IMG/VR virus record: IMGVR_UViG_3300042521_003026
Location: 1-60,979 of that record
Source: a virus
Length of the DNA stretch: 60,979 nt
Direction: 5' to 3' (one strand)
The stretch's first letter is position 1; each line of letters begins with the position of its first letter. Under the pieces are notes generated by a model. That model made no database searches and was not told the origin of the DNA. It worked only from the letters and a program-made list of their open reading frames with translations. This document shows positions 51,844 to 56,170 of the stretch, piece after piece. The position numbers and the translations under genes are program-made.

Positions 51844-52650
51844 ATGTCACTAAGAACGCCAAGTCTAACAAATTTTTTAAGTTCAGTCGGAAAAGGCTTT
51901 CAGAGGCCTTGGAGATATTATGTACTATTTGATCTTCCATATGGACTCACCAAAGATCAAGGCTCACTCAGAGAGGTTTCAAATTTAGTACCAGCATTAG
52001 CATCAAAGGTTGAATTACCTGGCAGAGAAATAGAAACGGTAGAATGGAAACATCAAGGCAAATTGAGAAATATGCCAGTTTATGCCAAATGGCCTTCTAT
52101 ACAAATTACATTCTTATGTGATGAGGAGATGAAGATTAAAAAAATGCTAGATGCATGGCAAAATTTTGTCATAGACCCAAATAGCTATTATGTAAATTAT
52201 TACGATGAATATGGAAGACAAGGATGTACAGTCGCAAGTTTAGATTCGGCTGGCTTGCCAACTTACTGCGTAAGAATAAATGAATTTTGGCCTAGAAGAG
52301 TTGATCCAGTAATATTGACCAGTGATGGTGGACAATCTGTAGCAACGGTAGAAGCAGAATTTGTTATGAAAGATTGGCACAATTCCGATAGTATAGGATT
52401 ACAACCAAATTCTAGTGGCGCTGATGATATATTTTCAAAATTAAGAATAGATCCAAAATCTTATATAGATTATCTATTACAAAACGTTACAGACCCTAAC
52501 GATAGAAGTAGTATATTGAGTTTAAATGACACCCTAAATAAAAGACTAACTTCGGACTTTAATCACTTAAAAGGTTTCGTCTTTGATCCGCTTGCATCTC
52601 TGTATTCAGTAACACAATTACTAGCAGGAAAAAAATTGTCACAAATTTAA
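51844..52650 (+). CDS. 54: Tail tube initiator, gp54-like
   Basis: 268 residues. VELPGREIETVEWK near residue 60, then WPSIQITFLCDEEMKIKK and MLDAWQNFVIDP resemble tail tube/tube-initiator proteins (gp19/gp54 fold). Length and context next to gp48 favour gp54. No strong Shine-Dalgarno. Confidence 0.72.
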   Translation: MSLRTPSLTNFLSSVGKGFQRPWRYYVLFDLPYGLTKDQGSLREVSNLVPALASKVELPGREIETVEWKHQGKLRNMPVYAKWPSIQITFLCDEEMKIKKMLDAWQNFVIDPNSYYVNYYDEYGRQGCTVASLDSAGLPTYCVRINEFWPRRVDPVILTSDGGQSVATVEAEFVMKDWHNSDSIGLQPNSSGADDIFSKLRIDPKSYIDYLLQNVTDPNDRSSILSLNDTLNKRLTSDFNHLKGFVFDPLASLYSVTQLLAGKKLSQI

Positions 52651-52676
52651 TTAAAATCATTTGAATGGAGAATACA

Positions 52677-53408
52677 ATGTTTAAACAATTACAATTGCCA
52701 GTACATGAAATAGAATTGCCAGTTACAAAACAAAAAGTAAGAATCAGACCCTTTACGGTAAAGGAAAACAAAATATTATTGATGGCGCTAGAGACAGAAA
52801 GTGTCGATCAAATGATTATAGCAACAAAACAAATAGTATCAAATTGTATAGTGCATCCAGAATTAGATGTAGACAAAATGGCATTCTACGATCTGGAGTT
52901 TATTCTATTAAACATAAGAGCCGCATCAATATCGGAAATTTTGACCCTAAATCTATCACCAACAGACAGACCAGATTGCGATGAGTGCAAAAAATCAAAA
53001 TCGATAGAAGTTAATTTAAACTCAGTAAAAGTTTTTATACCGGAAAATTATAATAAAAAAATAAAACTAGATTGTGGGCTGACGGTTTGCATGAAAGACC
53101 CCACCTATGAAACCATTTCAAAGTTTAAAGAATTAAACTCACCGGATGTTGAATCGGTTTTTAATTTTGTCTCGGAGTGCATAAAAACTATATCAGACGA
53201 ACAAACAGTCTATGATATAGAAGCAATGGAGGTATCAAAAGAAGAAGTATTAAAATTCATAGAGTCTTTACCAATAAAAGATTTTAATAAAATAGAAAAA
53301 TTCTTTGAAGATTTACCAAGACTTGAGCACGTTGTATCTTGGGAGTGTTCTTCCTGTCAAACCAAAAGAAACTATGAAATGAGAGGTATAGAATCTTTTT
53401 TAGAATAA
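52677..53408 (+). CDS. 26: Baseplate hub assembly protein, PF12322 (gp26-like)
   Basis: 243 residues from the ATG at 52677, with GGAGAATACA upstream. IRPFTVKENKILLMALE near the start is the PF12322 (T4 baseplate) signature; two CxxC-type pairs (CDEC, CSSC) follow. The end reads TCT TTT TTA GAA TAA, which includes a T-TTT-TTA slippery site that could shift into the next small frame. Confidence 0.88.
   Translation: MFKQLQLPVHEIELPVTKQKVRIRPFTVKENKILLMALETESVDQMIIATKQIVSNCIVHPELDVDKMAFYDLEFILLNIRAASISEILTLNLSPTDRPDCDECKKSKSIEVNLNSVKVFIPENYNKKIKLDCGLTVCMKDPTYETISKFKELNSPDVESVFNFVSECIKTISDEQTVYDIEAMEVSKEEVLKFIESLPIKDFNKIEKFFEDLPRLEHVVSWECSSCQTKRNYEMRGIESFLE
53396..53402 (+). other. Putative -1 ribosomal frameshift site T-TTT-TTA
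   Basis: Zero frame TTT TTA, with the stop two codons later. A -1 slip reads on into the 59-residue frame, giving a fusion of about 303 residues. A five-bp ATGAG/CTCAT hairpin follows at about 53418-53437. As in the lambda G/GT tail chaperones, this may fuse two tail-assembly proteins. Confidence 0.6.
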
Positions 53409-53587
53409 TGCTGGGTCATGAGTCACTATTTTCTCATTACCAAAATAATTTTTCCATGATTCAGCATCATAAATACTCATTAAGAGAAATCGAAGAAATG
53501 ATTCCCTTAGAAAGAGAAATCTACATTGCATTATTAAATGATTGGATAGAACAAGAAAATGAAAGAATAAAGAAAGCTATGAAATAA
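53408..53587 (+). CDS. Small baseplate/tail assembly protein, 59 aa, frameshift partner
   Basis: From the ATG at 53408: the part MIQHHKYSLREIEEMIPLER is followed by EIYIALLNDWIEQENER. This short helical pattern recurs after PF12322 genes in marine T4-like phages. It is in the -1 frame relative to the gp26-like gene, and its ATG overlaps the gp26-like stop. Confidence 0.75.
   Translation: MLGHESLFSHYQNNFSMIQHHKYSLREIEEMIPLEREIYIALLNDWIEQENERIKKAMK
53468..53475 (+). promoter_or_regulatory. Late promoter octamer CATAAATA (weak)
   Basis: Inside the small frameshift-partner gene, upstream of the membrane protein at 53594. One mismatch from consensus. May be chance. Confidence 0.3.
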
Positions 53588-53593
53588 AATTCT

Positions 53594-53995
53594 ATGAAAG
53601 ATAAAGCCACTAAAACAAAAAATAAAGGTTTGGTTGCATCTGCAATAGAAAGACAAGGACTTAAACCCAATAAACCACACAATAAAGAAATAGTGGCATT
53701 AGGGGGTGCACCTAGATTCGAGGAAGATATCGAAGACAAAACGGATACAAAAATTGATGAAAGCTCTGTAGAAATTAGTGATACGTGGAGAAATAGAAGA
53801 AGAATGGCATATTTTTCTTTATTTTCTATTATGCTTGTAACTTATTGGGCACTTTTTGTCGTGCCCGAATCGAGATTGAAAATTTTAGGAGAAGTTATAA
53901 CTTGGTTTTATTTCGTTATGGCATCTGTGGTCGGTGGATACGTAGGATTCTCTGCATTTGAGAAAAAATGGAATTCAAATTCAAAGAATAAGTAA
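53594..53995 (+). CDS. Two-pass membrane protein, holin-like
   Basis: 133 residues. Charged N-terminal half, then two hydrophobic segments (RMAYFSLFSIMLVTYWALFVV and WFYFVMASVVGGYVGFSAF). A holin or membrane component of tail assembly is possible. Similar proteins lie beside tape-measure-like genes in marine phages. No Shine-Dalgarno. Confidence 0.6.
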   Translation: MKDKATKTKNKGLVASAIERQGLKPNKPHNKEIVALGGAPRFEEDIEDKTDTKIDESSVEISDTWRNRRRMAYFSLFSIMLVTYWALFVVPESRLKILGEVITWFYFVMASVVGGYVGFSAFEKKWNSNSKNK

Positions 53996-54004
53996 GGCAC
54001 TAAG

Positions 54005-56170
54005 ATGGAAGGCTCTTTATCACCGATAATTTACAAAGCACAAACTCACGATGGACCCAAAACCATCGAATTAAAGAGATCTGACAAAAACAAGTGGACT
54101 GTAGAAGGAGAGGAGAATGCCGAAACCTCCACATCAACAGTATTGCCCCATTTGATGTCAGAAAGAAATCAAGCTAAAAATAATAATTTAAAATCTCAAA
54201 AAAATCCGTATGGTCAATTAACCTTAGCAGGTATGGGAGGTGCACTAAAGTCCATTTCGCCTGCATTTGCACTAGGACTTGCATCTTTTGGACCAAATAC
54301 TCAAAAATTAATGGCATTGGCGGCCGCCGGCTACGGAGTGTATAAGGAGGCAAAACAAGGCTCAAACGAAAGAAGAGAAAAATATAGAGAATGGGCAGAA
54401 AATCAAAATGACGTAAATCTACAAAGAATGAAGCCTCCTGTATTTGCCGATGTTAATGCAGCGGGTGCATATGGAGCACAAGCAGACACCGAGACTGGTA
54501 AACAAATTGTAAAACAACTACAAATTTCAAATAACTTACAAAGAGAATACTTAGATTTTCTATATGATCAAAGAGAAGCTGGCACAAAACCAGAAGGTTC
54601 CGCATTTAAAGAAAAAATTAAAAATAAAGAAGATCAAACCGATAAAATTCAAGAACAAAGTCAATCGTTTTTTGGTAAAATAAAAGATTTTATATTTGGA
54701 ATAGGTTCAGCAACTGCGGCGTTATCTTTATTTCCAAAATCTATTAAAAAAATCATTTCAGCTATAACATCAATAGTTGGGGGTTTGGCTGGTGGGAAGG
54801 TCGTAAAATCAATCGCAAAGGTGGCCACAAAGGCCGCTAAATCGGTAAGTAGTGTCGCAAAGGTTGCAACAAGTGCTATCACAAAAGGTATAGCAAAAAC
54901 TGGTGCTGGAAAAATTATATCAAAGTCTGCAAAATCTGCGTTTGAAAAAATAGCACCAAAAGTTATTGGTAAAAATGTTGGTAAATCTGCATTGAAAAAA
55001 ATACCAATAGCGGGTGCCATAGCCGGCGGACTGTTTGCAATACAAAGAGCCTTTGAGGGCGACTGGACTGGAGCCGGAATGGAAATAGCATCCGGTGCGG
55101 CCAGCACCATACCTGGTCTTGGAACCGCAGCATCTGTAGGAATAGATCTTGCATTGGCGGCAAGGGATGTATCACAAGAAGGCGATGGTATTAGTGTATC
55201 ATCCGAATCTGCTACAAACGTAATGCCTGCACCACAACCGGCCCCCATGCCAAGATCTAATGTAATGAATCGTCGCAGTAGTATCAGAACATCAGGCGGT
55301 GTTGCCGGTATGATACCTCCTGCGCCGATACCGGCACCAAAGACAAAAGGCAAACTTGAGCCTGAGATGCAAGCAATGCTAACCGGCGTTGCCGAAAAAC
55401 ACGGAATAGATCCTGCGGCCTTTATTGCAATGGCGGGACACGAATCTGGATTTAACCCTAGTGCGGTCAGTCCAACCGGTGCTATGGGACTGTTTCAGTT
55501 TACAAAAGGAACTGGAAGACAGTATGCAGAAAAATTAGGATTCGGTGGAGATTTAAATGAAATAAGAATGGACCCTGTGAAAAATGCGGAAATGGCAGCC
55601 GCATTATATAAAGATAATTTGAAATCTATGCAAGGTGTGATGAAGGAAAGCGGATTTACGGACGAAGCAACGGCCGCATATCTTGCACACAACCTAGGTG
55701 CAGGAGGAGCTAAGTCATTATTGAGACAATATGGAGCAAATCCGAATGCACCTCTGCAATTGACCAGAGATATGGCTTTAAATCCTGCCAATTTTAGAGG
55801 AGTGGCAACACCTGCCCAGGCACTTCAAAGATTATCTAACGTTGCAGGCAGTTCTTCCGCCGAGGCTTATAGGCAAAAATATCAAATTGGTCAAATGAGT
55901 GTGTCACCATCTGTTCAAAATATGTCCGTTGAACCATCGGTACCCTCTATGTCACGAGCACTTGCAAGCAATTCTGCTCAGAATGCAGGATTGCAAACCT
56001 CTATGAATGCAAGAACCACACAATCATCACCAGTTATTATGAATAATATGTCGAGTGGAGGAGGAAATGGTGGCGCCTCGACACCACCAAGGGGTAATAT
56101 TAAACCAAGACCAGAAGAGCCATATTTTTATGAATTGCAGAAAAAGGCATTATTAAGTTCCGTTTCCTAA
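54005..56170 (+). CDS. Tail/hub protein with lytic transglycosylase domain (tape-measure candidate)
   Basis: 721 residues. Residues 65-130 and 220-390 are Ala/Gly/Lys-rich with hydrophobic helices, as in tape measure proteins. An SLT-type domain covers about 455-590: HGIDPAAFIAMAGHESGFN (catalytic Glu at 480) and SPTGAMGLFQF. The C-terminal end is Ser/Pro/Met-rich, low complexity. It probably cuts peptidoglycan as the tube enters, replacing the lysozyme missing from gp5 (inference). Confidence 0.85.
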   Translation: MEGSLSPIIYKAQTHDGPKTIELKRSDKNKWTVEGEENAETSTSTVLPHLMSERNQAKNNNLKSQKNPYGQLTLAGMGGALKSISPAFALGLASFGPNTQKLMALAAAGYGVYKEAKQGSNERREKYREWAENQNDVNLQRMKPPVFADVNAAGAYGAQADTETGKQIVKQLQISNNLQREYLDFLYDQREAGTKPEGSAFKEKIKNKEDQTDKIQEQSQSFFGKIKDFIFGIGSATAALSLFPKSIKKIISAITSIVGGLAGGKVVKSIAKVATKAAKSVSSVAKVATSAITKGIAKTGAGKIISKSAKSAFEKIAPKVIGKNVGKSALKKIPIAGAIAGGLFAIQRAFEGDWTGAGMEIASGAASTIPGLGTAASVGIDLALAARDVSQEGDGISVSSESATNVMPAPQPAPMPRSNVMNRRSSIRTSGGVAGMIPPAPIPAPKTKGKLEPEMQAMLTGVAEKHGIDPAAFIAMAGHESGFNPSAVSPTGAMGLFQFTKGTGRQYAEKLGFGGDLNEIRMDPVKNAEMAAALYKDNLKSMQGVMKESGFTDEATAAYLAHNLGAGGAKSLLRQYGANPNAPLQLTRDMALNPANFRGVATPAQALQRLSNVAGSSSAEAYRQKYQIGQMSVSPSVQNMSVEPSVPSMSRALASNSAQNAGLQTSMNARTTQSSPVIMNNMSSGGGNGGASTPPRGNIKPRPEEPYFYELQKKALLSSVS

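Follow-up and report, generated by a model that had tools for sequence, protein, structure and literature searches.

The window, by which we mean the whole stretch of DNA analysed here, is a 60,979-base IMG/VR virus record from an uncultured HTVC008M/cyanophage-like lineage. The neighbourhood considered here is a T4-like tail module with the gene order of Pelagibacter phage HTVC008M. A tail tube gene (51844-52650; phrog_45, 1e-23) lies upstream of a plus-strand gene at 52665-53408, whose 247-residue product matches PF12322, phrog_150 and the profile of T6 gp26 and is the predicted short form of a tail-assembly chaperone (TAC-N, T4 gp26-like). Further downstream on the plus strand, a 721-residue tape-measure-like protein (54005-56170; PF01464, 1e-18) is encoded where HTVC008M has a gene annotated as "putative tail tape measure". 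Its SLT lytic transglycosylase domain occupies residues 463-578, so cell-wall cutting seems to be built into this tail protein. The initial annotation had placed a chaperone pair upstream of the tape-measure-like gene, and upstream it is, although two genes away, with a small gene intervening (53594-53995, plus strand) at a place where HTVC008M also has a gene. The 133-residue product of this small open reading frame has weak family matches only (phrog_14936, 5e-5) and is a putative membrane protein; with its hydrophobic stretch and charged tail, it is possibly a holin or a tail-associated membrane protein.

The end of the chaperone gene reads ...ATG AGA GGT ATA GAA TCT TTT TTA GAA TAA TG..., and within it the heptamer T TTT TTA (53396-53402, plus strand) sits in the reading frame of the gene and in the right register for a -1 shift, as had been claimed. 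A single sense codon, GAA, separates the heptamer from the frame-0 stop TAA (53406-53408), which ends the short form. The -1 frame is open from approximately 53378 to 53587, and its ATG (53408-53410) overlaps the frame-0 stop as TAATG, again in agreement with the initial annotation. Reading after a slip would start at AGA 53402 and continue for 61 codons before the stop that ends at 53587 (extension 53402-53587, plus strand), so that the predicted fusion comprises 307 residues, 246 from frame 0 and 61 from the -1 frame. A gene caller would instead annotate an open reading frame of 59 residues with its own ATG (53408-53587, plus strand), for which we looked for a Shine-Dalgarno (SD) sequence at initiation distance and found none. 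The 59-residue protein proposed earlier is thus present as an open reading frame, but it more plausibly represents the C-terminal domain (TAC-C, gp51-like) of the 307-residue fusion than a separate gene.

Profile searches matched the frame-0 protein to PF12322 over its whole length (positions 4-218 of 219, E 9e-46) and to phrog_150, "baseplate hub" (5e-51). The -1 extension matched phrog_634, "baseplate hub assembly catalyst" (2e-23), and also the C terminus of phrog_150 (2e-6), which suggests that fused phrog_150 members exist. No match was obtained for either protein in NCBIfam, and a sequence search of the PDB with the profile gave none. When the short form was modelled with AlphaFold (pLDDT 89), a single PDB match had high probability, the HK97 tail-assembly chaperone 2ob9 (probability 0.75-0.82; TM 0.43-0.52 by target length; E 0.7-0.8, not significant by E-value), and this predicted resemblance in fold is a hint only.

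By itself, the heptamer is weak evidence for a frameshift, because 4 of the 97 open reading frames in the window carry an in-frame TTTTTTN in their last eight codons; the frequency of this motif in the window is approximately 0.0011 per codon, with 0.009 expected in the last eight codons of a gene. Another site, a TTTTTTG near the end of the minus-strand gene at 2125-2466, opens into a short and unremarkable -1 extension and was taken as chance. At the sequence level, it is conservation in relatives that makes the slip-site evidence decisive. Two independent searches gave 133 loci (100 non-redundant), and T TTT TTN was found at the same place, with the same -1 extension, in all 133. The search based on gp26 returned the heptamer in 97/97 records, which reduce to 85 non-redundant genes. 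The other search used the -1 open reading frame only, to avoid selecting by the upstream gene, and found the heptamer exactly where expected, behind a long frame-0 open reading frame, in 48/48 loci, with the frame-0 frame just 90 and 162 codons long in two of them. In each of ten named phages and a near relative, 9-12 nt separate T TTT TTN from the end of the stop, and the same domain follows in an open -1 frame. Relatives that keep both genes without the slip site, which the initial annotation had named as evidence against frameshifting, were sought throughout the 133 loci of the lineage and none was found. The variants among the 100 non-redundant loci are TTTTTTC (68), TTTTTTT (27), TTTTTTA (4) and TTTTTTG (1), so the T TTT TTA of the window is a minority form. 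T TTT TTN also occurs in Straboviridae that do not belong to the T-even branch (Aeromonas Ah1, Cronobacter S13 and Vibrio phi-Grn1). Several T4-like groups reportedly keep frameshifting.

Two variations on this layout were observed. In one clade (L123, L124, L128-L130, L135-L139, L142-L145, L147, L150 and L154), the short form runs approximately 27 nt past the heptamer (..FFGSASPITA*), and this longer overlap of the frames makes a separately started gp51 still less likely there. In Ackermannviridae (L102, L104 and L157-L171, such as Cba120 and Serratia IME250) and in Vibrio phage D504 (L103), a gp26-like gene likewise leads into a -1 frame that resembles TAC-C (..SYFVMCDELKAHGYSIFEISESMPWHLDLL..). 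These phages lack the X XXY YYZ heptamer; a conserved NTTTTC is present, with a stop two codons later, which suggests a single-tRNA slip from TTC to TTT.

Selection at silent positions offers a second view of the slip site. The P-site Phe codon is TTT in 85/85 genes, compared with 73% TTT among the other Phe codons of the same genes (p=3e-12), and the preceding codon ends in T in all 85, where 52 would be expected from codon use. These choices are silent for the protein but needed for slippage, and although the residues FF are conserved as protein too, this does not account for the codon choice. The p values given here treat loci as independent, ignoring relatedness, and are guides rather than exact probabilities. 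Codon choice at the slip site is, on this comparative evidence, constrained at the nucleotide level.

Two candidate stimulators flank the heptamer. The upstream one, which the initial annotation missed in its list of elements, is a Shine-Dalgarno-like AGAGG (53382-53386, plus strand) positioned 9 nt before the slip site, with a predicted pairing energy of -7.1 kcal/mol with the anti-SD. Among relatives, 48/85 have GGAGG or GAGG ending exactly 10 nt before the heptamer (codon-shuffle z -11.7), and Glu at this site is encoded by GAG in 48/68 cases as against 7/53 for other Glu codons before Gly (p=1e-10). The 9-nt spacer of the window and the 10-nt spacer of most relatives both lie inside the 9-14 nt published for -1 shifts (PMC5009743). 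The motif stands 21 nt before the overlapping ATG, a position too remote for initiation but suited to stimulating a frameshift.

Downstream, the 75 nt after the heptamer were folded, and a 60-nt hairpin of 21 bp (53408-53467, plus strand) is predicted, beginning 5 nt after the heptamer (MFE -17 kcal/mol; z -3.66 relative to dinucleotide shuffles), as a putative 3' stimulator. The nearest distinct relative (L005) keeps this large hairpin at -18.5 kcal/mol, and four of its six changed pairs are still paired, one of them changed on both sides. The small ATGAG/CTCAT hairpin pointed out in the initial annotation gives way to this structure: it is not the favoured fold, and a change of ATGAG to ATGAA in L005 removes its last pair. 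Across relatives, folding starting 5 nt after the heptamer was stronger than in synonymous-codon nulls, with mean z between -1.3 and -1.7 (-1.3 for 40 nt and -1.5 for 65 nt) and values near 0 elsewhere. One cyanophage clade has its own stem, paired in 91% of cells versus 26-49% when slid, with UA, GC and AU exchanges at one pair. RNAalifold found no single consensus structure among 84 collinear sequences, the pairs of the window's hairpin reach only 50% in other relatives, and an Rfam search returned nothing above threshold. As pairings differ between clades, it seems from these predicted folds that a stem-loop has been selected rather than one sequence.

The relationship of this locus to the T-even phages is visible in phage T6, in which both gp26 (208 residues) and gp51 (249 residues) are PF12322 proteins. 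T6 gp51 consists of PF12322 plus an in-frame copy of the C-terminal domain, joined where the slip site lies in the window, and the -1 extension aligns from the slip site onward with the last 50 residues of T6 gp51 (residues 200-244, E 3e-8). Profile-profile comparison of the window's gp26 gave a probability of 98.9% for T6 gp26 and 79% for T6 gp51; direct BLAST of the same protein against T6 gp51 gave nothing meaningful. Judged from their sequences, T-even phages encode the short form (gp26) and the long form (gp51) as two genes on opposite strands. For T4, both proteins are described as hub assembly chaperones, and assembly requires gp51 although the virion lacks it (PMC3004832); a 2016 review lists T4 as the exception to the G-T rule (PMC5009743). 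According to papers that cite it (PMC10885494, PMC12846349), the work of Vladimirov, Gautam and Davidson (2022, Virology 566:9-15, doi 10.1016/j.virol.2021.11.003) proposed gp26 and gp51 as the tail-assembly chaperones of T4-like phages, with two genes in T4. The likeness to chaperone pairs of other phages drawn in the initial annotation therefore holds, as a homology within T4-like phages recognized in 2022 (Vladimirov et al.) and not as a new analogy. The window shares with these phages the PF12322 short form and a long form of PF12322 plus the C-terminal domain, and it differs in belonging to an uncultured HTVC008M/cyanophage-like lineage and in its T TTT TTA, found in 4/100 loci. Sullivan et al. 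(2010) described cyanophage gp51 without approximately 200 N-terminal residues (PMC3037559), and our data point to the missing residues being supplied by gp26 through frameshifting.

The TAATG overlap in the window, along with the several records that annotate a small separate "gp51" gene, would fit translational coupling, in which ribosomes terminate at the TAA ending at 53408 and restart at the overlapping ATG to make a free 59-residue gp51-like protein. We consider this improbable. In 47/84 testable loci, the seven-codon stretch that follows the heptamer contains no ATG, GTG or TTG, and among the 37/84 that do have a start codon there, an SD at initiation distance accompanies just 1/37; in the window, the SD lies too far from the ATG to initiate. 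Database records omit the C-terminal part or start gp51 at an internal ATG that cuts off conserved residues, so the annotated genes count against coupling as well. Some relatives also read frame 0 for 27-36 nt beyond the heptamer, and re-initiation would leave the invariant T TTT TTN unexplained. The TAATG of the window would nonetheless allow a little free C-terminal product. As a separate observation, the gp51 part is unannotated or truncated in five public phage records (L010, L015, L016, L099 and L100), and no joined (slippage) coding sequence was present among the frameshift-type records we looked at.

Slippage of RNA polymerase on the T run, followed by standard translation of mRNAs of altered length, could also yield the long form, since all relatives have runs of at least six T and bacterial polymerase is known to slip on runs of nine A or T (PMC5009743). 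The commonest run, however, has just six T before a C, a short run for polymerase slippage, while an SD 10 nt upstream and a hairpin 5 nt downstream are stimulators of the ribosomal kind and the frame register of the heptamer is invariant; we rate this explanation marginally below coupling. In T-even-type phages, a single in-frame gene, gp51, encodes the long form, and the window might accordingly hold a decaying or split remnant of an ancestral long gene, or a sequencing error, with an accidental frame break. The chance of this appears negligible: 100 non-redundant loci share the codon at which the frame breaks, silent sites are under selection, and the -1 part changed between the window and L005 by eight synonymous codons to one non-synonymous codon. 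An accidental break may be regarded as already refuted by this conservation.

A programmed -1 ribosomal frameshift that makes two forms of a tail-assembly chaperone is, by contrast, very probable as a prediction for this locus, and the candidate frameshift of the initial annotation gains support from a heptamer conserved in 133/133 loci and from selection at silent sites. Most ribosomes would terminate at 53408, yielding the short form of 247 residues (TAC-N). On T TTT TTA, with the P site occupied by tRNA-Phe and the A site by tRNA-Leu, a fraction of ribosomes would be aided by the upstream AGAGG, through its pairing with 16S rRNA, and by the hairpin 5 nt downstream, and both tRNAs would slip back one base, so that 61 further codons are read to give the long form of 307 residues (TAC-NC). 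If lambda gpG/gpGT is a guide (PMC5009743), the short form would serve as a coat for the tape-measure protein, and the rarer long form would use its C-terminal domain to recruit tail-tube subunits. Our analysis shows the conserved sequence elements and the selection on them, the homology of both parts to T4-type gp26 and gp51 and the lack of other means of initiation in many relatives; we infer the occurrence of slippage, its efficiency, the action of both stimulators and the division of labour in assembly. A point against the frameshift is that, in E. coli, U UUU UUA is a weaker slip site than A AAA AAG (PMC5009743).

Several known systems resemble this one. In lambda gpG/gpGT and the G-T frameshift conserved among long-tailed phages (Xu et al. 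2004; reviewed in PMC5009743), too, a chaperone gene somewhat upstream of the tape-measure gene has a -1 shift close to its end, which gives a short form and a C-terminally extended form. Certain tailed-phage shifts seem to use no stimulatory signals (PMC5009743), and the locus studied here differs from the lambda type in the two conserved candidate stimulators that flank its slip site; compared with the lambda and HK97 chaperones, only a weak similarity of the predicted fold, to HK97 2ob9, was seen. The predicted arrangement of an SD approximately 10 nt upstream, a heptamer and a stem-loop closely downstream is shared with the E. coli dnaX cassette, which differs in its heptamer (A AAA AAG rather than T TTT TTN) and its gene, and the shift here yields the longer product. 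The window locus may work like dnaX, but with its T TTT TTA it is not filed as dnaX-type. In Vandenendeviridae and Andersonviridae, represented by phage Adele (PMC12846349), a -1 frameshift likewise gives TAC-N and TAC-NC from a T-rich site, and the -1 open reading frame was likewise mis-annotated as a hypothetical gene; those are other phage families, and the site is GTTTTT rather than T TTT TTN. Chaperone frameshifting is therefore already known from related viruses; the part with the least documentation is the conserved dnaX-like pair of stimulators.

We see roughly even chances that this T4-like lineage departs from the lambda type, which is described as free of stimulators, by using a full two-stimulator cassette with conserved silent sites (an SD 10 nt upstream and a hairpin 5 nt downstream), which would imply a much higher frameshift rate and a differently tuned ratio of short to long form. 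If true, it may explain why T-even phages could replace the shift by separate genes for gp26 and gp51. Annotations of marine T4-like phages routinely either give "gp51" as a small free protein or miss it, and hundreds of phage genomes should be re-annotated. With such conserved stimulators, the chaperone ratio can be tested directly, and this lineage and T4 form a natural comparison between one gene with a frameshift and two genes as ways of setting that ratio.
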